A stretch of 64,000 bases of DNA from Caldimonas caldifontis (lineage in GTDB: Bacteria; Pseudomonadota; Gammaproteobacteria; Burkholderiales; Burkholderiaceae_C), in assembly GCF_002930615.1 (NCBI RefSeq), contig NZ_PSNX01000003.1, forward strand, positions 62,001-126,000, in the 5' to 3' direction. The notes below the pieces were generated by a model. It saw only the letters and a list, made by a program, of their open reading frames with translations, made no database searches and was not told the DNA's origin. A program made the translations under genes and the position numbers. Positions 9,244 to 64,000 of the stretch are shown in pieces. How positions within the stretch are numbered: the first letter of the stretch is position 1; the number at the start of each line of letters is the position of its first letter.

Positions 9244-10023
9244 TCACATGCGGAAATGCTCGCCGAGATAGACCTTTCGCACGTCGGCGTTCTCGACGAT
9301 CTCGGCAGGGGTGCCCTGGGCCAGGACCCGGCCCTCGCTGATGATGTAGGCGTGGTCGCAGATGCCCAGGGTCTCGCGCACGTTGTGGTCGGTGATGAGC
9401 ACCCCGATGCCGCGCGACTTGAGGAAGCTGATGATGCGCTGGATCTCGATCACGGCGATCGGATCGACGCCGGCGAAGGGCTCGTCCAGCAGAATGAAAC
9501 GCGGCTGCGTGGCCAGGGCGCGCGCGATCTCCACGCGACGCCGCTCGCCGCCAGACAAGGCCGGGGCCGGCGAGTGGCGCAGCTTTTCGATCGACAGGTC
9601 GCCCAGCAGCTGGTCGAGCTGGCGCGTGAGGCTGGCTTCGTCCAGCGGACGGCCCTGGGCGTCGCGCTGCAGTTCGAGCACGGCGCGGATGTTGTCCTCC
9701 ACCGTGAGCTTGCGGAAGATCGAGGCCTCCTGCGGCAGGTAGCTCAGGCCCAGGCGCGAGCGTTCGTGGATGGGCCGGCGCTCGACGCGCTGGCCATCGA
9801 TGCGGATCTCGCCAGCATCCACGGGCACCAGGCCCACGATCATGTAGAAGCTCGTGGTCTTGCCGGCGCCGTTGGGGCCCAGCAGGCCCACCACCTCACC
9901 GCTTTTCACCGACAGGCGCACGTCCTTGACCACCTGACGCGCCCCGTAGCGCTTCTGCAGGCCCGACACCTCCAGGCGGCTGCCGGCACTGTCCGGCCTG
10001 TCCTTCACCCCAGGCAACGTCAA
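9244..10023 (-). CDS. lptB: LPS export ABC transporter ATPase LptB
   Basis: This 259-residue cytoplasmic ATPase powers extraction of lipopolysaccharide from the inner membrane with LptFG. Walker A GPNGAGKTTS is near residue 45, the Q-loop stretch SYLPQEASIFRKLTVEDNI is diagnostic for LptB, and the signature LSGGERRRVEIARAL and FILLDEPFAGVDP follow. The C-terminal YLGEHFRM is typical. About 17 extra N-terminal residues precede the fold start. It overlaps lptA by four bases and rpoN follows, the conserved lptA-lptB-rpoN order. Confidence 0.97.
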   Translation of the reverse strand: MTLPGVKDRPDSAGSRLEVSGLQKRYGARQVVKDVRLSVKSGEVVGLLGPNGAGKTTSFYMIVGLVPVDAGEIRIDGQRVERRPIHERSRLGLSYLPQEASIFRKLTVEDNIRAVLELQRDAQGRPLDEASLTRQLDQLLGDLSIEKLRHSPAPALSGGERRRVEIARALATQPRFILLDEPFAGVDPIAVIEIQRIISFLKSRGIGVLITDHNVRETLGICDHAYIISEGRVLAQGTPAEIVENADVRKVYLGEHFRM

Positions 10024-10586
10024 CGTGTGCCTCCGCGGCTGCTGGCCGGCGCCGGCGTCAGGACCCCGCGCACCCGGCCGTCGGGGCTGCCCTCGCCCCC
10101 CCCTTGCACGGTGAAGGTCTCGGCCGTGTTGTCCCAGGTGATGGTCTGGCCCTGGATCTCGTCGGCCAGGTCGTTGCCGCGCAGCCGACGGATCATGGCA
10201 TTGCCGCTCAGCCGCACCGTGTCGGTGCGGCTGTCGTAGTCGATGCGCGCGGCCCGGCCTTCGACATGCTCATCGACGCCTTCACGCTTTTGCCGGAAGT
10301 AGGCGGGCTCGCCCGTCCCGGTGGCCTGGGCGCTGTGGTGGCCTTCTGCCGACTGACGCACCTCCACGCGCTCGGCCCGCAGCAGGAGCGAGCCCTTGGT
10401 GATCTCGACCCGCCCGGTCAGGACATTGACCCGCCGCGCGTCGTCATAGCGCAGGGCATCGGCGGTGAAGCGCAGGGGCTGGTCCCGGTCCGCCCGCTCG
10501 GCGCCTGCCGGGCCCGCCGCAACGGCCAACCCCCACAGGCTGGCGCAGACCGCCAGGCGGACGGTGGAGGAACAAAACGGGCTCAT
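10020..10586 (-). CDS. lptA: Lipopolysaccharide transport periplasmic protein LptA
   Basis: This 188-residue periplasmic protein bridges inner and outer membranes in LPS export. It has an N-terminal signal peptide (hydrophobic LAVCASLWGLAVAAGPAGA, cleavage near residue 30) and an OstA-like beta-jellyroll with DALRYDDARRVNVLTG and repeated GRVEITKG-type strands. The C-terminal tail is Gly/Arg-rich. Its start codon directly abuts a nested inverted repeat and has no purine-rich ribosome binding site. The genes usually upstream, kdsC and lptC, are not here; dsbA is upstream instead, on the same strand, 101 bases away. Confidence 0.93.
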   Translation of the reverse strand: MSPFCSSTVRLAVCASLWGLAVAAGPAGAERADRDQPLRFTADALRYDDARRVNVLTGRVEITKGSLLLRAERVEVRQSAEGHHSAQATGTGEPAYFRQKREGVDEHVEGRAARIDYDSRTDTVRLSGNAMIRRLRGNDLADEIQGQTITWDNTAETFTVQGGGEGSPDGRVRGVLTPAPASSRGGTR

Positions 10587-10619
10587 TGCGGCATGAAACT
10601 TGCAGTTTGCCGCATTCTA
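10587..10619 (-). promoter_or_regulatory. lptA: lptA leader: nested inverted repeat with -10 candidate
   Basis: Read on the plus strand, TGCGGC (10587-10592) pairs with GCCGCA (10609-10614). Inside it, AAACT (10596-10600) pairs with AGTTT (10604-10608) across a three-base loop, leaving a three-base bulge. The outer arm touches the lptA start codon. On the minus strand TAGAAT at 10619-10614 is a good -10 match, which would place the start site inside the repeat; no convincing -35 is visible. The site may be an operator or an RNA hairpin that limits initiation. Both roles are inference. Confidence 0.45.
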
Positions 10620-10687
10620 GCCCAGCGCGGCTGCCTGAGGGAGGGCCACCGAGCATTTTTCATGCCGAGCCAGCGCCCGGCAGACGA

Positions 10688-11323
10688 TTACTTGCCGGCG
10701 CGGGCCTGGGCGATCAGGAAGTCGGCCACCTGCAGCGAACGCTCCAACGAGCCGGCCAGCGCCCCCGAGGTGTAGTAGCGGCCATTCACGCCGATGGCGG
10801 GCACGCCATCGATCTTGTAGGCCTCGGCCGTCTGTTTGGCCTGACGGGTCTTGGTCTGCACGCCGAAGGAGTTGTAGGCCTCCAGGAACTTGGCACGGTC
10901 CCCCCCGTGGCGGGCGACGAAATCGGCCATCGCTTCGGGCTTGTTCAGGGGGTTGCGCTCCACGTGCACCGCATGGAACACGCGCTTGTGCATCTTCTCG
11001 AGTTCGCCCATGGCTTCCAGCGCGTAGTACAGACGCTGATGGACCGTGAATTCGTCGCGGAAGGCCACCGGCACGCGGCGGAAGCTCACGTCAGCGGGCA
11101 ACCTGGCCGCCCAGGGCTCGATCACCGGCTGGAAACGGTTGCAGTGCGGGCAGCCGTACCAGAAGAACTCGACCACCTCGACCTTGCCATTGGCACCGCC
11201 AGCCAGCGGCTGGCGCAGCACCACGTAGTCCTTGCCGGCTGCCGGGGCCTGGGCCCAGGCGGCGGGCAGGGCGAGCCCGGCCAGCGTGGCGGTCAGTCCG
11301 GTGGCAAATGCGCGTCGTTTCAT
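10688..11323 (-). CDS. dsbA: Thiol:disulfide interchange protein DsbA
   Basis: This 211-residue periplasmic oxidase introduces disulfide bonds into exported proteins. A signal peptide (MKRRAFATGLTATLAGLALP, cleaved after AWA near residue 24) precedes a thioredoxin fold with the active site FFWYGCPHCNRFQP, Cys near residues 57 and 60. The cis-Pro motif is in DGVPAIGVNGRYY. The helical insertion expected for DsbA is present. AAAGGA lies upstream of the ATG. It sits in a minus-strand run after argS and the SPOR gene, upstream of lptA. Confidence 0.95.
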   Translation of the reverse strand: MKRRAFATGLTATLAGLALPAAWAQAPAAGKDYVVLRQPLAGGANGKVEVVEFFWYGCPHCNRFQPVIEPWAARLPADVSFRRVPVAFRDEFTVHQRLYYALEAMGELEKMHKRVFHAVHVERNPLNKPEAMADFVARHGGDRAKFLEAYNSFGVQTKTRQAKQTAEAYKIDGVPAIGVNGRYYTSGALAGSLERSLQVADFLIAQARAGK

Positions 11324-11423
11324 GAATGTTGTCCTTTCGTCTGCACGTGTGTAACGCCTGACAGATGGATCAGGCCGACACCGTGAAGTTCAGCCGCCGG
11401 TCTGCTGCCGTGCGACGTTCGTC

Positions 11424-12026
11424 TCAGCGCTGGGCGCGCACCAGGGCCGCGTCGATGCCCTGGCTGCTGAGCTGGGTCTGGGCCCGGTCGGCCTCGGCCT
11501 GGGTGTCGTAGGGGCCCAGACGCACACGGTAGACCGTGCGCCCGCTCTGTTCCAGCTCGGTCACGCGGGCGGTGAGCCCCATCATGGCCAGGCGGGCGCG
11601 CTGTTGCTCGGCATCGGCCGCGCGGGTGTAGGCCCCGGCCTGCACGAAGTAGATCAGGCTCGGCGGCGCCGTGGGAGAGGCGCCGGGCGTGACAGCGCCA
11701 GAAAGGATGGCGGCTGGGTCGCGCGCGGGTGCCGTGCCCTGGCGCAAGCCGGGCGGCACGTCAGGCAAGGCCCCGCCGGCGGCCGGCGCGGTGGGCGCAG
11801 AAGCGCCAGCGGCCGGGCTGCCGCGCCCTTGCAGCGGTGCATTCGGGTTCCAGTTGCGGTTGCGCTCGGCCTCGGCCGCCTCCTGCTCTGCCGAGCGGGC
11901 CGGCACCTTGTTGACGAAGGGGACCGGCACCTTGGTGACGTACAGCGCCACCGCCAGCGCCACGGCCAGGCCGATGAGCACGCCCACCACCAGACCCAGG
12001 GCAAAACCGCCGCGTTGCTTTTTCAT
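11424..12026 (-). CDS. SPOR-domain membrane protein (FtsN-like)
   Basis: This 200-residue single-pass inner-membrane protein likely binds denuded septal peptidoglycan. Residues 1-7 are positively charged, a hydrophobic helix (FALGLVVGVLIGLAVALAVA) follows at about 8-30, then a Pro/Ala-rich periplasmic linker of roughly 90 residues, then a SPOR domain at about 125-198 with YFVQAGAYTRAADAEQQRARL and VYRVRLGPYDTQAEADRA. The layout matches FtsN-like proteins of Burkholderiales, which often lie next to argS. It follows argS by 58 bases. A division role is inferred from the domain. Confidence 0.88.
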   Translation of the reverse strand: MKKQRGGFALGLVVGVLIGLAVALAVALYVTKVPVPFVNKVPARSAEQEAAEAERNRNWNPNAPLQGRGSPAAGASAPTAPAAGGALPDVPPGLRQGTAPARDPAAILSGAVTPGASPTAPPSLIYFVQAGAYTRAADAEQQRARLAMMGLTARVTELEQSGRTVYRVRLGPYDTQAEADRAQTQLSSQGIDAALVRAQR

Positions 12027-57661: not shown

Positions 57662-58633
57662 TCAGGGCGTGGCCTCCCCCAGCAAGCGCCGGGTGTGTTC
57701 GCGGTAGTCGCTGGGCGGCATGCCGAAGCGCGACTTGAAGACGCGGCTGAAGTGGGCCAGGTTGGAGAAGCCATGGGCCAGCGCGATCTCGGTGACCGAG
57801 CGGGGGCAGGGGGCCGGGCGCAGCAGTTCGCGGCGGCAGGCTTCCAGGCGTTCGCGCAGGATGTAGCCCGCCACGCCCTCGGCTTCGTCGGAGAAGGCGT
57901 TGTAGAGATGACGGCGGCTGCAGTTGAGCGCAGCGGCGATGCTGTCCACGTTCAGCGCCGGGTCCGCCAGGCGGGCCGTCACCTGCTGCTTGATGCGCTC
58001 GCGCAGGGCTTCGCGCTGGGACATCGCACTGCCGCGGCCGGCGAGCTCGATGAGGGAGAGGTGAACGAACTGGGTGATGGCATCGCCCGCCGCGCGCGCG
58101 GCTTCGTCATGCATGCCGGGCAGTTCGCGGTAGACGCTGCGCATGGTCTCCAGCGCCAGGCGGGCCACACCGCCGCTGCCGCCCAGTCGGCGGGCCATCA
58201 GTTCGTCAAGCACCAGGCCCCGCTCGACCAGATGCGCCTTGGGCACCATCACGATGAGATGCTCCACCCGCACCGGGTTGGCCACTGCATAGGTGTCCGT
58301 GGTGTCGTAGATGCTCCATTCACCCGGCGTGACCCAGGCCAGCCGACCCTGTTGTTCAACACCGGCGCAGCCGGTGAAGGGCGCCACGATCTTGAGGTAG
58401 CCGTTGTCGCTGGCGCGGATCTTCTCGCGCGAGCGCATCACACGGTGGCGGTTGGCCTCCAGCCGCGTCAGGATGACCGCACCGGCATGGGCACTGACCA
58501 TGCGGCCGTCGAAGTCGGTGTCACCATAGACATCGGACTCCAGGCCGCAGAACAGGCGGCTGATCCAATCCGACCAGAAAGGCACACGCTCGCGGGGGGC
58601 GACCTCGTCGGTGCTCATGACGGCGGTTTGCAT
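57662..58633 (-). CDS. AraC-family transcriptional regulator
   Basis: This 323-residue protein has an N-terminal AraC-binding-type domain (about 10-180; FWSDWISRLFCGLESDVYGD) of the sort seen in FeaR/NphR regulators of aromatic catabolism, and a C-terminal double helix-turn-helix (about 215-320; LNVDSIAAALNCSRRHLYNA and IALAHGFSNLAHFSRVFKSR). AGGAG lies upstream of the ATG at 58633; an ATG at 58618 is also possible. It is divergent from the Liv-type operon, its likely target. The inducer may be aromatic, inferred from the family and the aldehyde dehydrogenase downstream. Confidence 0.88.
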   Translation of the reverse strand: MQTAVMSTDEVAPRERVPFWSDWISRLFCGLESDVYGDTDFDGRMVSAHAGAVILTRLEANRHRVMRSREKIRASDNGYLKIVAPFTGCAGVEQQGRLAWVTPGEWSIYDTTDTYAVANPVRVEHLIVMVPKAHLVERGLVLDELMARRLGGSGGVARLALETMRSVYRELPGMHDEAARAAGDAITQFVHLSLIELAGRGSAMSQREALRERIKQQVTARLADPALNVDSIAAALNCSRRHLYNAFSDEAEGVAGYILRERLEACRRELLRPAPCPRSVTEIALAHGFSNLAHFSRVFKSRFGMPPSDYREHTRRLLGEATP

Positions 58634-58710
58634 GGTGCGGCTCCTGGGGCGGGGGACGCCCATTATTCGGGCCCCGGCCCGGCCGGAAAAGCCTATCGGA
58701 GCCATAGCCC

Positions 58711-58728
58711 GGGTAAATCCCCAGGGGG
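58711..58728 (-). promoter_or_regulatory. GGGTAAATCCCC-type palindromic site
   Basis: GGGTAAATCCCCAGGGGG lies in the 218-base divergent region between the AraC regulator and the Liv operon. Its reverse complement has CCCTGGGG-ATTT-ACCC, close to CCCTAGGG-TTTCT-ACCC at 39205-39221 before the second porin. It is a candidate operator for the AraC protein or for a shared regulator. Confidence 0.4.
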
Positions 58729-58851
58729 TGTGCACGGATCGTCAAGCGGCAGTGCATGGGCGGCAAAGCAGCCCGCGGGCAGGCTTCCTACCATCGCCCT
58801 CACAAGCTGCCGGCGCATGGACCCGGCGGCACCACCGAGAAGGAGACCGCC

Positions 58852-60096
58852 ATGACCTCGTCCGACCGCCGCCCCTCCCGCCGCACCCCGGCCTGCGGGA
58901 CTTCCCTGAGCCGGCGCAGCGCCGTGCAGGCCCTGGCCGTGGGCGCCGCCGCCCTGGCCGCCCCCGCCCTCACACGCGCCCAGTCCGGCCCCGTGCGCAT
59001 CGGCTACGCCATCGCCCGCACGGGCCCCTGGACGCCCGGCGCCCAGGTCAGCCAGGAGCCCAACTACCTGCTGTGGGCCGAACAGGTCAACGCCGCGGGC
59101 GGCCTGGACGTGCGCGGCACGAAGCGCCCCATCGAGCTGATCAGCTCCGACGACCGCAGCGACATCGAGACCTGCGTGCGCTCCTACCAGAAGCTGATGG
59201 GCAGCGACAAGGTCGACCTCATCCTCCCGCCCTGGGGCAGCAACGCCAACTTCGCCGTGGCCCCGCTGGCCAACCGCATGGGCTACCCCTTCCTCGCGCC
59301 CACGGCCCTGTCGCGCCGCCTGGTGGAGATGAAGCTGCCCTACTTCTTCCTGCTGCTGCAGCAGCCTGCGCCGATGATGAATGCGCTGGTGGACATGCTC
59401 AAGGCCAACGGCGTGAAGACCGTGGCCACGATCTACATCGACGACCTCTTCGGCCTGGAGAACTACGCCGCGTTGAAGGTGGCCCTGCAGGGCACCGGCA
59501 TCAGCCTGGTGGAGGACAAGAGCTATCCCGCCGGCGTGAAGGACCTCTCGCCGGTGCTGCGCTCGATCAAGGACAAGAACCCCGATGCCTTCATCGGCAT
59601 CACCTACCCGCCCGACACCATCCTGGCCAGCCGCCAGAGCAAGGAGATCGGCTTCAACCCGAAGTTCTTCTATGCCTCGGTGGGCACGGCCTTCCAGCTC
59701 TACCGCAACGTGATGGGCCCGGGCGCCGAAGGGGTGCTGGGCATGGGCTCGTGGAACCCCAAGACCAGTGCCGGTGCCAAGGCCTACTTCGACGCCCATG
59801 TGGCCAAGTTCGGCGCCCAGAAGGAACCCGACCGCTGGGCCAGCGGCCATTGCTGGGCCGGGTTGCAGATCCTGCAGGCGGCCGTGGCCAAGGTGGGCCT
59901 GGACCGCAAGGCCATCCGCGACTACGTGGCGGGCACCGAGCACGACACCATCATCGGCAAGGTGAAGTTCACGGGCAGCGAGAACACCGCCACGCCGGGC
60001 ACGGTGAGCCAGTGGCAGAAGGGCGAGTTCGAGGTGGTGTGGCCGCGCAGCATGGCCACCGCGCCGCTCATCACGCAGAAACCCGCCTGGGTCTGA
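58852..60096 (+). CDS. Branched-chain amino acid-type ABC transporter substrate-binding protein
   Basis: This 414-residue receptor of the LivJ/Peripla_BP_6 type has a long N-terminus with SLSRRSAVQALAVGAAALAA, a twin-arginine-like signal cut near residue 43. The mature part has RIGYAIARTGPWTPGAQ, ISSDDRSDIETCVRSYQKLM and FIGITYPPDTI. AAGGAGA precedes the ATG. Members of this group bind amides, aromatic acids or amino acids. It is followed by a complete LivHMGF set, so it is the operon's receptor. Confidence 0.9.
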   Translation: MTSSDRRPSRRTPACGTSLSRRSAVQALAVGAAALAAPALTRAQSGPVRIGYAIARTGPWTPGAQVSQEPNYLLWAEQVNAAGGLDVRGTKRPIELISSDDRSDIETCVRSYQKLMGSDKVDLILPPWGSNANFAVAPLANRMGYPFLAPTALSRRLVEMKLPYFFLLLQQPAPMMNALVDMLKANGVKTVATIYIDDLFGLENYAALKVALQGTGISLVEDKSYPAGVKDLSPVLRSIKDKNPDAFIGITYPPDTILASRQSKEIGFNPKFFYASVGTAFQLYRNVMGPGAEGVLGMGSWNPKTSAGAKAYFDAHVAKFGAQKEPDRWASGHCWAGLQILQAAVAKVGLDRKAIRDYVAGTEHDTIIGKVKFTGSENTATPGTVSQWQKGEFEVVWPRSMATAPLITQKPAWV

Positions 60097-60105
60097 GCCG
60101 CGTCC

Positions 60106-60981
60106 ATGTCCTTCGGTGCCTGGCTTGAACTGATCGCCTCCGGTCTCATCACCGGGGGCGTCTATGCCCTGGTCGCGCTCGGCCTGAACCTGCAGTACGG
60201 GCTGATGCGCATCCTCAACATCGCGCACGGCGAGTTCCTGATGGTGGGGGCCTTCCTCACCTGGCTGATGCAGACGCAATTCAGCGTCTCGCCGCTGCTG
60301 ATGGTGCCCGTGAGCTTTGCACTGCTGATGGGCGTGGGCCTGATCGTGCACCGGCTGTGGTTTCGCCCGCTCACCGCCACCTCGCCCAATCTCGATGTCT
60401 TCGAGGCGCGCGGCCTGATGGTGTGTTTTGGCCTGATGTTCCTGGTGCAGAACTTCGCCTCGCTGATCTGGGGTGGCGACCTGCGCGGCTACGACTACCT
60501 GACCCAGCCGGTGGCCATCGGCGGGGCGCAGTTTGCGGTCAACAAGCTGGTGGTCTTCGGCCTGGCGCTGTTCTTCAGCGGCGCGCTCATCGTGCTCCTG
60601 CGCACCACGCTGCTGGGCAAGGGCGTGCGCGCACTGATGCAGTCGCCCACCGGGGCGCAGCTCGTGGGCATCAACACCCAGCGGCTGCACCCGCTGATGT
60701 TCGGCATCGGCCTGGGCCTGTCGGGCGTGGCGGGGTGCCTGCTGTCGATGACCTATGCCATCACGCCCTCGATGGGCGAGCCCTACACCGTGACCGCCCT
60801 CATCGTCATCACGCTGGGTGGCTTCGGCAGCATGAGCGGGGCGCTGGCCGGCGGCTTGCTGCTGGGCGTCATCGAGGCGCTGGGCATGCACTTCACCAAC
60901 CCCTCGCTGAAGTCCCTGCTGAGCTACAGCGTGTTCATCGCCGTACTGCTGTTGCGGCCGAACGGGCTGTTCAAGAAATGA
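60106..60981 (+). CDS. livH: Branched-chain amino acid-type ABC transporter permease LivH
   Basis: This 291-residue inner-membrane permease has eight or so helices: IASGLITGGVYALVALGLNL, LMRILNIAHGEFLMVGAF (family signature with NxAHG) and the ITLGGFGSMSGALAGGLLLG segment. It pairs with LivM, whose start codon overlaps its stop by four bases. The symbol reflects the family; transport of branched-chain amino acids themselves is not shown. Confidence 0.9.
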   Translation: MSFGAWLELIASGLITGGVYALVALGLNLQYGLMRILNIAHGEFLMVGAFLTWLMQTQFSVSPLLMVPVSFALLMGVGLIVHRLWFRPLTATSPNLDVFEARGLMVCFGLMFLVQNFASLIWGGDLRGYDYLTQPVAIGGAQFAVNKLVVFGLALFFSGALIVLLRTTLLGKGVRALMQSPTGAQLVGINTQRLHPLMFGIGLGLSGVAGCLLSMTYAITPSMGEPYTVTALIVITLGGFGSMSGALAGGLLLGVIEALGMHFTNPSLKSLLSYSVFIAVLLLRPNGLFKK

Positions 60982-61940
60982 ACGATCGCACCCTTCTGAC
61001 CCGGGATCTCCTGGTGCTCTTCGCCCTCGCGGGCTGGGCCCTGGCCATTCCCCACTACGGCAGCGAGTTCGTGCTGTCGCTCACGCTCACCTGCCTGATG
61101 TACATCGCGCTGTCGTCGAGCTGGTCGCTGTTCTGCGGCACCACGCGCTACCTCTCGCTGGCCACCGCCGCCTTCTTCGGCATCGGTGCCTACACCAGCG
61201 CGCTGGTGCTGGAGCAGTCGTCGTGGCTGTCGGCCGTGGGCCTGGGGGCGCTGATCGCCGCGGCTGTGGCGGTGGTGATGGGGGCGGCGGTGCTGCACCT
61301 GCGCGGCACCTACTTCGCCGTGCTCACCTTCGGCATGACCGAGCTGATCCGTCACGCCATCACCTACTTCGAGAAGCAGGTGACCGGCACGGTGGGCCGT
61401 GTGCTGGTGGTGGTGCCCGAGGGCGACACGGTCTACCTCACCGTGCTGGCGCTGGCGGTGCTGGCGCTGGCCACCTCCATCGTCGTGCGGCGCAGCCGCT
61501 TTGGCCTGGCCCTGGTGGGCATCGGGGCCGACGAACAGCGTGCCCAGACCCTGGGCGTGAACACCCGGCTCGTGAAGATCGGCGGCTTTGCGCTGACCGC
61601 AGCCTTCGCCGGCGCGGTGGGTGCGGCCATGTCGGTGCGATGGACCTACATCGACCCCACCACCGTCTTCAACCCCTTCATCGGCTTCCAGACCGTGCTG
61701 ATCGCGCTCATCGGCGGTGCCGCCACGCTGTGGGGGCCGCTCATCGCCGCCATCGTCTTCAGCCTGCTGGCCGAAACCCTGCGCCTGCAGCTGCCACAGC
61801 TTTACATGATGTCGCTGGGCCTGCTGCTCATCCTGTGCGTGCTTTACCTGCCCGGCGGCCTGGCCTCACTGCGCTGGAGCACCTTCGGGGGCTGGTGGCG
61901 CGACAGCCGCGGATGGTGGAAGGAGCAGCGCCATGGCTGA
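60978..61940 (+). CDS. livM: Branched-chain amino acid-type ABC transporter permease LivM
   Basis: This 320-residue second permease starts at an ATGA overlap with livH. Family features are LSSSWSLFCGTTRYLSLATA, AAFFGIGAYTSALVL, HLRGTYFAVLTFGMTEL and ALIGGAATLWGPLIAAIVF. It overlaps livG by eight bases. The gene order H-M-G-F is standard. Confidence 0.9.
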   Translation: MNDRTLLTRDLLVLFALAGWALAIPHYGSEFVLSLTLTCLMYIALSSSWSLFCGTTRYLSLATAAFFGIGAYTSALVLEQSSWLSAVGLGALIAAAVAVVMGAAVLHLRGTYFAVLTFGMTELIRHAITYFEKQVTGTVGRVLVVVPEGDTVYLTVLALAVLALATSIVVRRSRFGLALVGIGADEQRAQTLGVNTRLVKIGGFALTAAFAGAVGAAMSVRWTYIDPTTVFNPFIGFQTVLIALIGGAATLWGPLIAAIVFSLLAETLRLQLPQLYMMSLGLLLILCVLYLPGGLASLRWSTFGGWWRDSRGWWKEQRHG

Positions 61941-62679
61941 GCTTCTGCTCGACGCCCAGGGCGTGACGGTACGCTTCGGCGGACTGGTGGCCGTTGACCA
62001 GGTCGATGCGACCTTCCACGCCGGTGAGCTGGTGGGCATCATCGGGCCCAACGGTGCGGGCAAGACCACCTTCTTCAACGCGATCTCCGGCGTGATCGCC
62101 CCCACCAGCGGACGGCTCGTGGCGCAGGGGCATGAGCTCACGGGCGCCAAGCCGCATGCCTATGCGCGGCACGGCATCGCGCGCACCTTCCAGACGCCGC
62201 GGGTGTTCGCCGAATTGCCGGTGGCCGCCAACATCGACTTCGGCCTGAAGTTTGCCGGCCGTCGCCGCACCGCCTCGTGGCTGCTGAAGGACGCGGGGAG
62301 CATCCTCAACGTGATCGGCCTGTCGGCCCAGGCCGCGCTGCCTGCCGCGGCCATCACGCCCTCGCAGCAGCGCCTGCTGGAGATCGGCATGGCGCTGGCC
62401 AGGCGGCCGCGCCTGCTGCTGCTCGACGAAGTGGCCGCCGGCCTCACCGAGGCCGAGGTGGAGAACATGGCCCAGCTCATCCGCCGACTGCGCGACGAGT
62501 TGGACCTGACCGTGGTGTGGATCGAGCACGCCGTGACCACGCTCCTGCGCCACGTCGAGTGGGTGCTGGTGCTGCACCAGGGCCGCAAGATCGCCGATGG
62601 CACGCCGGGCGAGGTGGTGCGCAACGCCGAGGTGATCGAGGCCTACCTGGGGGACGAAATGGCCGAGGCGGTGGCATGA
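61933..62679 (+). CDS. livG: Branched-chain amino acid-type ABC transporter ATPase LivG
   Basis: This 248-residue ATPase has Walker A GPNGAGKTTFFNAISG near residue 38, the LivG-type RTFQTPRVFAELPV segment, a modified signature (ITPSQQRLLEIGMALARRP, where LSxGQ is replaced by TPSQQ) and Walker B LLLLDEVAAGLTEAE. The unusual signature may reduce its ATPase activity or mark it as the weaker half of the pair with LivF. It overlaps livF by four bases. Confidence 0.9.
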   Translation: MAELLLDAQGVTVRFGGLVAVDQVDATFHAGELVGIIGPNGAGKTTFFNAISGVIAPTSGRLVAQGHELTGAKPHAYARHGIARTFQTPRVFAELPVAANIDFGLKFAGRRRTASWLLKDAGSILNVIGLSAQAALPAAAITPSQQRLLEIGMALARRPRLLLLDEVAAGLTEAEVENMAQLIRRLRDELDLTVVWIEHAVTTLLRHVEWVLVLHQGRKIADGTPGEVVRNAEVIEAYLGDEMAEAVA

Positions 62680-64000
62680 AGAACGACATTGAACAAGCCC
62701 TGGGCGCCGGCCACAGACTGGCGCACCTGAAGGTCAAGGGCCTGAGCGCCGGCTATGGCGGTTTCCTGGTGCTGCGCGACCTGAAACTCGAAGCCAGACC
62801 CGGCCTCACCGTGATCCTGGGCCCCAACGGCGCGGGCAAGACCACGCTGCTCAAGGCCATCGCCGGGCTCATCCCCCGCGCGGGCGAGGTGCTGCTCGAC
62901 GACGAAGCCCTGCCGACGGAGAAGCCCGACGAGATCGTGCGCCGCGGCCTGAGCCTGGTGCCCGAGGGCCGCCAGCTCTTTGCCCAGATGACGGTCACCG
63001 AGAACCTCGAGCTGGGTGGCTGGCTGGTGGACAAGGCCGAGCGGGCGCGCCGCCTGGCCCAGGCCTTCAAGGACTTCCCCAAGCTCGCAGAACGGGCCCA
63101 GCAACTGGCCGGCACGATGAGTGGCGGCGAGCAGCAGATGGTGGCCGTGGCGCGCGCGATGATGAGCGCCCCCCGCCTGCTGATGCTCGACGAACCATCG
63201 CTGGGCCTCGCACCACGCATGGTCGATGAACTCCTGGCCATCGCCCGTCGCATCGCCGATGCCGGCACCACGGTGCTGATGGTCGAACAGAACGTGCGCA
63301 AGGCCCTGGCGGTGGCCGACCGGGGCTATGTGCTCGAACGTGGCGTGCTCGTGGCCAGCGGCCCGGCCACGCTGCTGTCGCGCTCCACGGTGATCCGCCA
63401 GGCCTATCTGGGCGCCCCCTCGGGCGCTGCCTCCTCTTCCTCATCCTCTTCCACCGACACGAAGGAGAAGTCCATGTCCGACCTGTCCATGCTCATCAAC
63501 GGCCTGGCCGTTTCCGCCGAAAAGGGCGCCACCTTCGAACGTCGCAACCCGCTCGACGGCAGCGTGGCCACGCGCGCCCCTGCGGCCAGCACCGCCGACG
63601 CGGTGGCTGCGGTGGAGGCCGCCGCCGAAGCCTTCAAGACCTGGAGCCAGACGGGCCCCGGCGAACGCCGCGCCCTGCTGCTCAAGGCCGCCGACGCGCT
63701 GGAGGCCAAGACGCCGAAGTTCGTGGAAGCCGTGCCGGCCGAGACCGGCGCCACCGGCATGTGGGCCGGCTTCAACGTCTTCCTGGCCGCCGGCATGTTG
63801 CGCGAGGCCGCCGCCCTCACCACGCAGATCGCCGGCGAGGTGATCCCCTCCGACGTGCCCGGCTCGCTGGCCATGGGCGTGCGCCAGCCCGCCGGCGTGG
63901 TGCTGGGCATCGCCCCGTGGAACGCCCCCGTCATCCTGGGTGTGCGCGCCATCGCCACACCGCTGGCCTGCGGCAACACCGTCATCCTCAAGGGCTCCGA
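62676..64000 (+). CDS. livF: Predicted LivF ATPase-aldehyde dehydrogenase fusion (3' end outside window)
   Basis: This frame opens at an ATGA overlap with livG and stays open to the end of the window. Residues about 1-245 are a full LivF ATPase: Walker A GPNGAGKTTLLKAIAG near 49, signature MSGGEQQMVAVARAMM near 148, LLMLDEPSLGLAP near 168, and the usual terminal motif RQAYLG. Where LivF normally stops there is no stop codon; a linker with seven serines (about 250-256) leads in frame into an aldehyde dehydrogenase at residue 267. Neither other forward frame has a stop in the linker. Either a real fusion or a lost stop is possible, and the dehydrogenase also has its own ribosome binding site. 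Confidence 0.8.
   Translation, partial: MKNDIEQALGAGHRLAHLKVKGLSAGYGGFLVLRDLKLEARPGLTVILGPNGAGKTTLLKAIAGLIPRAGEVLLDDEALPTEKPDEIVRRGLSLVPEGRQLFAQMTVTENLELGGWLVDKAERARRLAQAFKDFPKLAERAQQLAGTMSGGEQQMVAVARAMMSAPRLLMLDEPSLGLAPRMVDELLAIARRIADAGTTVLMVEQNVRKALAVADRGYVLERGVLVASGPATLLSRSTVIRQAYLGAPSGAASSSSSSSTDTKEKSMSDLSMLINGLAVSAEKGATFERRNPLDGSVATRAPAASTADAVAAVEAAAEAFKTWSQTGPGERRALLLKAADALEAKTPKFVEAVPAETGATGMWAGFNVFLAAGMLREAAALTTQIAGEVIPSDVPGSLAMGVRQPAGVVLGIAPWNAPVILGVRAIATPLACGNTVILKGS
63474..64000 (+). CDS. Aldehyde dehydrogenase (vanillin/benzaldehyde-type), internal start candidate, 3' truncated
   Basis: The first 175 residues of an NAD-dependent aldehyde dehydrogenase are visible: a family-like start with LSMLINGLAVSAEKGATFER, AAAEAFKTWSQTGPGERRAL, and the nucleotide-binding IAPWNAPVILGVRAIATPLA. 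The catalytic Cys and Glu are beyond the window. It resembles the vanillin/salicylaldehyde dehydrogenase group. AAGGAG lies ten bases before the ATG at 63474, so it can be translated alone, but the same frame is continuous with livF upstream. This entry is the independent-start alternative to the fused reading. Confidence 0.75.
   Translation, partial: MSDLSMLINGLAVSAEKGATFERRNPLDGSVATRAPAASTADAVAAVEAAAEAFKTWSQTGPGERRALLLKAADALEAKTPKFVEAVPAETGATGMWAGFNVFLAAGMLREAAALTTQIAGEVIPSDVPGSLAMGVRQPAGVVLGIAPWNAPVILGVRAIATPLACGNTVILKGS

Follow-up and report, generated by a model that had tools for sequence, protein, structure and literature searches.

A LivF-type ABC ATPase continuous in frame with an aromatic-type aldehyde dehydrogenase: a probable fusion gene closing an older importer operon in Burkholderiales

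ABC importers of the HAAT type (LivFGHMJ / UrtABCDE-like) bring together in one operon a binding protein, two permeases and two ATPases, an arrangement shared by the locus considered here, where a LivF-type ATPase is encoded beside LivG, a pair of permeases and a binding protein; at this locus, in contrast, LivF runs in frame into an aldehyde dehydrogenase (ALDH). It has often been proposed that an importer is physically tied to the enzyme that first acts on the imported substrate but, to our knowledge, such ties are seldom realized as one gene in ABC systems. That a single frame can give rise to a long and a short product is not without precedent: the formation of Cas11b from cas8b is described as such a case (PMC11899642), and SctQ is described as the product of a gene that gives a long and a short protein by means of an internal in-frame start (PMC4295842). 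Among the matches listed from the open-access literature, at the level of titles and the beginnings of abstracts, neither a LivF-ALDH fusion nor its operon is described, most subscription papers being outside this scope; within the same limits, the statement of the first-pass annotation of this DNA that no described fusion of this kind is known is upheld. Domain-architecture databases, for example, may contain this architecture as an uncommented entry. Below we argue that the locus probably carries a genuine fusion gene, which closes an older importer-ALDH operon, was likely selected in one lineage of Burkholderiales, and would yield both a tethered and a free ALDH.

The window, that is, the whole stretch of DNA that was analysed (64,000 nucleotides of Caldimonas caldifontis, assembly GCF_002930615.1, contig NZ_PSNX01000003.1, positions 62,001 to 126,000 of the forward strand), contains the features collected in Table 1.

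Table 1. Position and identification of the fused gene, its parts and the adjoining operon (coordinates of the window)
Feature	Coordinates	Strand	Basis and remarks
AraC-type regulator, FeaR-like, divergent	57662..58735	-	NF007243 FeaR 145.8 bits, below cut-off 199
Periplasmic substrate-binding protein of the transporter	58756..60096	+	weak UrtA/LivK-type match, 50.2 bits, below cut-off; conserved synteny
livH-type permease	60106..60981	+	UrtB 174.5 bits, LivH 96.6 bits, both below cut-off
livM-type permease	60978..61940	+	NF008450 90.1 bits, below cut-off 366; ATGA overlap with livH
livG-type ABC ATPase, presumed partner of LivF	61933..62679	+	NF008449 LivG 197 bits, below cut-off 362
LivF-type ABC ATPase half	62676..63413	+	residues 1-246; Pfam ABC_tran 101.5 bits at 34-175
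In-frame linker, 20 residues, Ser-rich	63414..63473	+	residues 247-266; translation
Internal Shine-Dalgarno-like AAGGAG	63462..63467	+	in frame, read as Lys-Glu
Aromatic-type ALDH half, complete	63474..64000, on to window-equivalent 64928 (L009:10929)	+	residues 267-750; Pfam Aldedh 491 bits, residues 282-739

The genes follow one another in the order FeaR-like regulator, binding protein, LivH, LivM, LivG, LivF and ALDH, and ATGA overlaps join livH to livM and livG to livF, the start ATG of the LivF half overlapping the livG stop. For the four transporter genes other than livF, all of the listed Liv/Urt models score below their curated cut-offs. The order of the operon is conserved across beta- and alpha-proteobacteria, with the livG-type gene kept beside livF-aldh in the relatives, and it is found with livF and aldh unfused in Polaromonas, Curvibacter, Acidovorax, Variovorax, Comamonas, Paracoccus, Shinella, Microvirga, Bradyrhizobium and others. 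Since the same order with unfused genes is so widespread, the functional pairing of the two looks old and the fusion appears to be a later step. The FeaR-like regulator is upstream and divergent in 11 of the best 80 named loci (L050, L051, L055, L063-L065 and L071-L075), some of the other loci ending short upstream. On the 3' side, outside the window, the next long open reading frame on the same strand as the fused gene (L009:11136-13727) belongs to the family of the T6SS effector BTH_I2691 (434 bits, cut-off 150).

The first-pass annotation had described an open frame from 62676 to the end of the window that encodes a complete LivF ATPase and then an ALDH, and translation bears this out: the frame is stop-free up to position 64000 and, beyond the window, extends to a total of 750 codons, with the stop at L009:10927-10929 (window-equivalent 64926-64928). 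The fusion has a calculated mass of 78.6 kDa, and an ALDH made from the internal start one of 50.4 kDa. The LivF half is an ABC ATPase domain with GPNGAGKTT at residue 49, MSGGEQQ at 148 and LMLDEPS at 169, which we take to be the Walker A, signature and Walker B motifs, respectively; the family motif RQAYLG, placed by the annotation near residue 243, occupies residues 241-246. The Met codon at 63474 is codon 267, as had been proposed, and opens a member of the ALDH superfamily with a full-length domain (positions 5-461 of the 461 of the Aldedh model) and the motifs PWNAP at 414, ELGGK at 517 and GQICMS at 548, the latter two being presumably the catalytic Glu and Cys motifs. Among the family models that match the fused protein, all of the 25 listed out of 224 are ALDH models. 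Both halves are complete and carry their motifs.

The two halves are separated by a linker with a run of seven serines, noticed already at first sight, that starts at residue 253; the other two forward frames are free of stops across 63411-63473, again as had been claimed. Ser, Thr, Ala, Pro and Gly together make up 71% of the linkers in 29 fused sequences. In the structure model of one fused relative (L071; mean pLDDT 88.5), residues 250-260 of the linker fall below 50 between two confident domains, so that the linker is probably a disordered tether, its length of 13-29 residues being that of the gap after subtraction of Leu-Gly. Linkers diverge readily between close relatives: the window's sequence (G000) and that of its congener G003 differ by six synonymous and five amino-acid changes in 20 codons, and L148 and L149 by one synonymous and eight amino-acid changes in 29 codons. 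Judged from such comparisons, the sequence of the linker is largely free, but its frame is not.

A single stop-free, GC-rich spacer of 20 codons, taken alone, is unremarkable, and, with a single assembly of the window's genome, the absence of a LivF stop might be ascribed to an error of sequencing or assembly. The probability of this explanation is, in our judgment, negligible. A stop-free LivF-ALDH junction was found in 33 distinct sequences from Burkholderiales after removal of duplicates (Roseateles L052 and Burkholderiaceae L054/L147 proved to be duplicates of genomes already counted); these sequences come from different genomes and have different linkers, which rules out an error that erased a stop. 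One of them is the congener G003, with halves 92% and 94% identical to those of the window; in the genus as a whole, the fused form is present in two of nine genomes. Comparison of the junction in related genomes, which had been suggested as a check, thus shows that the fusion recurs.

The 33 fused sequences comprise 23 from the window's family (f1), nine from a second family (f10) and one named Rubrivivax record. The searches covered 299 genomes of the window's family, a partly overlapping set of 397 genomes of the same family that were at least 90% complete, 399 genomes of the order, 74 genomes of family f10, and named genomes, from which the best 80 loci of at least 591 confirmed ones were taken. 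Within the set of 397, the match spanned both halves without a stop in 22 genomes and contained a stop in 17; one genome matched over the ALDH half alone, and the other 357 gave nothing at the strict limit. Relatives with LivF more than 70% identical but with separate genes number 31. As the operon remains unfused in these close relatives, the fusion is not needed for its basic function. Outside Burkholderiales and outside the final tree, Hyphomicrobium L057 is also fused, with a gap of 162 nt, whereas a search of 398 genomes of the phylum with this Hyphomicrobium fusion revealed no further fusion outside Burkholderiales: 29 loci were analysed, LivF lay beside ALDH in ten, and the sole fused one was the window's own. 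In the same Hyphomicrobium strain (sp. CS1BSMeth3; the two unusual frames lie at L057:8038-9717 and 9710-12019), livM and livG share one open frame of 559 amino acids. Among plasmids, the fused protein matched 250 records, three of them over at least 80% of its length; by annotation, two of the three (H1 and H3) carry separate genes for an ABC ATPase and an ALDH, and the third (H2) is unannotated.

Several other variants of the operon deserve mention in their own right. In L157 (genome G945), the LivF frame stays open for about 950 nt past the ALDH start, in a frame that differs from that of ALDH, reflecting either an assembly frameshift or a real arrangement. In seven operons, mostly from alphaproteobacterial records (L106, L112, L115, L116, L119, L121 and L122), LivF has a C-terminal tail of 144-181 residues, Pro/Ala-rich in most, and the ALDH is 40-44% identical; the tails share short motifs, which in L119, L121 and L122 are found also at the very end, and three of the tails had no match when scanned against Pfam. 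Such a tail is possibly a docking tail. Two other genomes of the window's genus (L011 in G001 and L012 in G004) have livF and aldh as separate genes in a distantly related form of the operon, with 48-49% LivF identity; in a midpoint-rooted quick tree, this form groups with the alphaproteobacterial branch, suggesting horizontal exchange.

What goes beyond chance is the persistence of the open junction, which 33 distinct sequences retain despite at least 16 changes of length. Ten gap lengths, ranging from 45 to 93 nt, separate the LivF core from the start of ALDH, and each of the at least 16 changes mapped on the tree is a multiple of three, the chance of which is about (1/3)^16 on the assumption of independent indels of all lengths. 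Rows were scored as fused only when in frame; the test is informative only because the clade of 31 fused rows holds no row that is stopped or out of frame. Selection against a scrambled LivF tail could be a partial cause of this frame-keeping. As for stops, shuffled linkers contain about 0.015 per codon, or 8.0 in the 534 codons of 29 fused sequences, and none of 2000 shuffles of the whole set of 29 linkers was free of them, in a test that ignores kinship. Neutral simulation along the tree, however, produced runs without any stop in 26 of 2000 cases at the calibrated rate, in 183 at half that rate and in 317 at rate 1, so that the absence of stops, by itself, is a moderate test.

These data bear on the possibility that the LivF stop was simply lost, that the resulting read-through is harmless, and that the whole task falls to a free ALDH initiated internally, the tether being without a role. 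Under this explanation, which the simulated frequencies accommodate, a stop in the linker would cost nothing; yet there is none in the 602 linker codons of the 33 fused sequences (the shifted frames contain two and two), and the consistent keeping of the frame is equally unexpected. The existence of close relatives with separate genes fits a dispensable tether. On balance, we consider tolerated read-through rather unlikely and prefer a fusion maintained by selection.

Trees built on LivF and ALDH, with the linker excluded, allow the history of the fusion to be outlined. The final set left out exact duplicates and loci with LivF identity below 70%, except for two kept as an outgroup. In the careful tree of 57 rows, there are two changes between the fused and the separate state, and starred branches place a group of 19 separate rows within the 29 fused ones; a single change was seen in 0% of 200 bootstrap trees, and a constraint that unites the 29 fused rows in one clade was not rejected (p-AU 0.415). 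It follows from the position of the 19 separate rows that one loss of the fusion is possible, and such a reversal to separate genes is also what a roleless tether would allow. The larger quick tree of 66 rows, which has four additional fused and seven additional close separate rows, unites 31 of the 33 fused rows in one clade, with L038 and L040 just outside it (support 83), and requires two state changes, one of them forced by starred branches; the mean for shuffled states is 22.3, and none of 500 shuffles was as low. The first-pass annotation had named relatives with separate genes and a stop in the same place as a finding that would refute a fusion: separate-gene relatives with a stop do exist, but none of them falls inside the 31-row fused clade of this larger tree. 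For Burkholderiales, one gain or one gain plus one loss would be equally short, and two gains would also be compatible with the trees; in Hyphomicrobium L057, the fusion has apparently arisen again, independently. The likely starting point is illustrated by the unfused L190 and L191, just outside the group that contains all fused rows, which have short LivF tails, a stop, and an ALDH in the same frame that starts 12 and 18 nt further on, respectively. Most likely, the fusion would have originated by loss of the LivF stop in such a short spacer that was already in the ALDH frame.

The internal ribosome-binding site AAGGAG, pointed out by the annotation, is present, and its GGAG core is retained 6 or 9 nt upstream of the old ALDH start in all 33 fused sequences, the start codon being ATG in 27 and GTG in six; thus, a conserved ribosome-binding site and start codon persist within every fused frame. 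The separate rows, namely the 31 close relatives and two outgroup rows, have GGAG 5 to 9 nt upstream in 30 of 33 and an ATG start in all 33. Every one of the 33 fused sequences uses GAG for the Glu of this site, compared to a share of GAG of 1065 out of 1348 Glu codons in the aligned parts of both domains (counts uncorrected for kinship). The invariant GAG and the retention of GGAG and start argue that ribosomes also start there and give a free ALDH, which is most likely made in addition to the fusion; the same retention in 33 of 33 would be expected if the read-through were merely tolerated. It has also to be considered that the fusion serves expression, with translation through LivF setting the ALDH:LivF ratio and proteases cutting the linker, after which the parts act separately. 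The composition of the linkers and their predicted disorder in L071 are compatible with cleavage, and the ATGA overlaps indicate that coupling is a theme of this operon; however, most separate relatives have a GGAG of their own before ALDH, and no shared cleavage motif was noticed upon reading the linkers by eye. Such a role in expression appears improbable to us.

With regard to the substrate, the best PDB matches of the ALDH half, near full-length, are vanillin dehydrogenase 9ihb (E 2.3e-196) and the salicylaldehyde dehydrogenases 6qhn (5.7e-191) and 4jz6 NahF (4e-170). Its top three solved relatives being aromatic aldehyde dehydrogenases, the assignment of an aromatic type made at first reading is strengthened, and our best guess for the predicted substrate is an aromatic aldehyde or its precursor. 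In Bradyrhizobium, a copper amine oxidase gene (L127:12876-14987) adjoins the livF-aldh operon and its FeaR-like regulator. A route via amine oxidation, prompted by this neighbour, was rejected: copper amine oxidase was found in none of 28 fused genomes (those of all fused sequences but L071, G1150, G1185, G1198 and G1200) and in one of 14 control genomes. For Acidovorax GW101-3H11, which has the unfused operon, no fitness data were found in the open-access literature.

Returning to the fusion maintained by selection, its consequences can be envisaged as follows. As the LivF part lacks a stop, any LivF produced from this gene has an ALDH attached, barring later cleavage or early termination, and each assembled importer would hold ALDH at the inner side of the membrane. 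There, free ALDH from the internal start could join the tethered subunit to make up a full oligomer, and the tethered enzyme would oxidise the aromatic aldehyde, whether imported or formed locally, right where entry takes place and so keep its cytosolic level low; the benefit would be the local oxidation of a toxic aldehyde. Such a membrane-docked assembly for uptake and oxidation, its oligomer filled by free ALDH, having arisen probably once in Burkholderiales and apparently again in Hyphomicrobium L057, is put forward tentatively, as a possibility suggested by the sequences. The retention of the join across many beta-proteobacterial species suggests that import and oxidation of aromatic aldehydes are physically linked there. 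With 33 fused sequences and 31 unfused close relatives sharing the same operon, it becomes possible to test by comparison what is gained when an enzyme is tethered to a transporter.

In relation to known systems, close counterparts are the unfused livF and aldh operons of Acidovorax, Variovorax, Polaromonas, Comamonas, Bradyrhizobium, Paracoccus and others, which share the gene order and, in several cases, the FeaR-like regulator, but have a LivF stop of their own, with the ALDH following 9 to 207 nt later (at ALDH identity of at least 60%). The solved dehydrogenases 9ihb, 6qhn and 4jz6 are chains of 467-500 residues that consist of ALDH alone, whereas here an ABC ATPase precedes the enzyme. 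With Cas8b/Cas11b and SctQ, the locus would share an in-frame internal start that provides a free C-terminal part; unlike those systems, it joins two whole proteins of different kinds, and its internal start sits where the ALDH gene of the unfused relatives begins.
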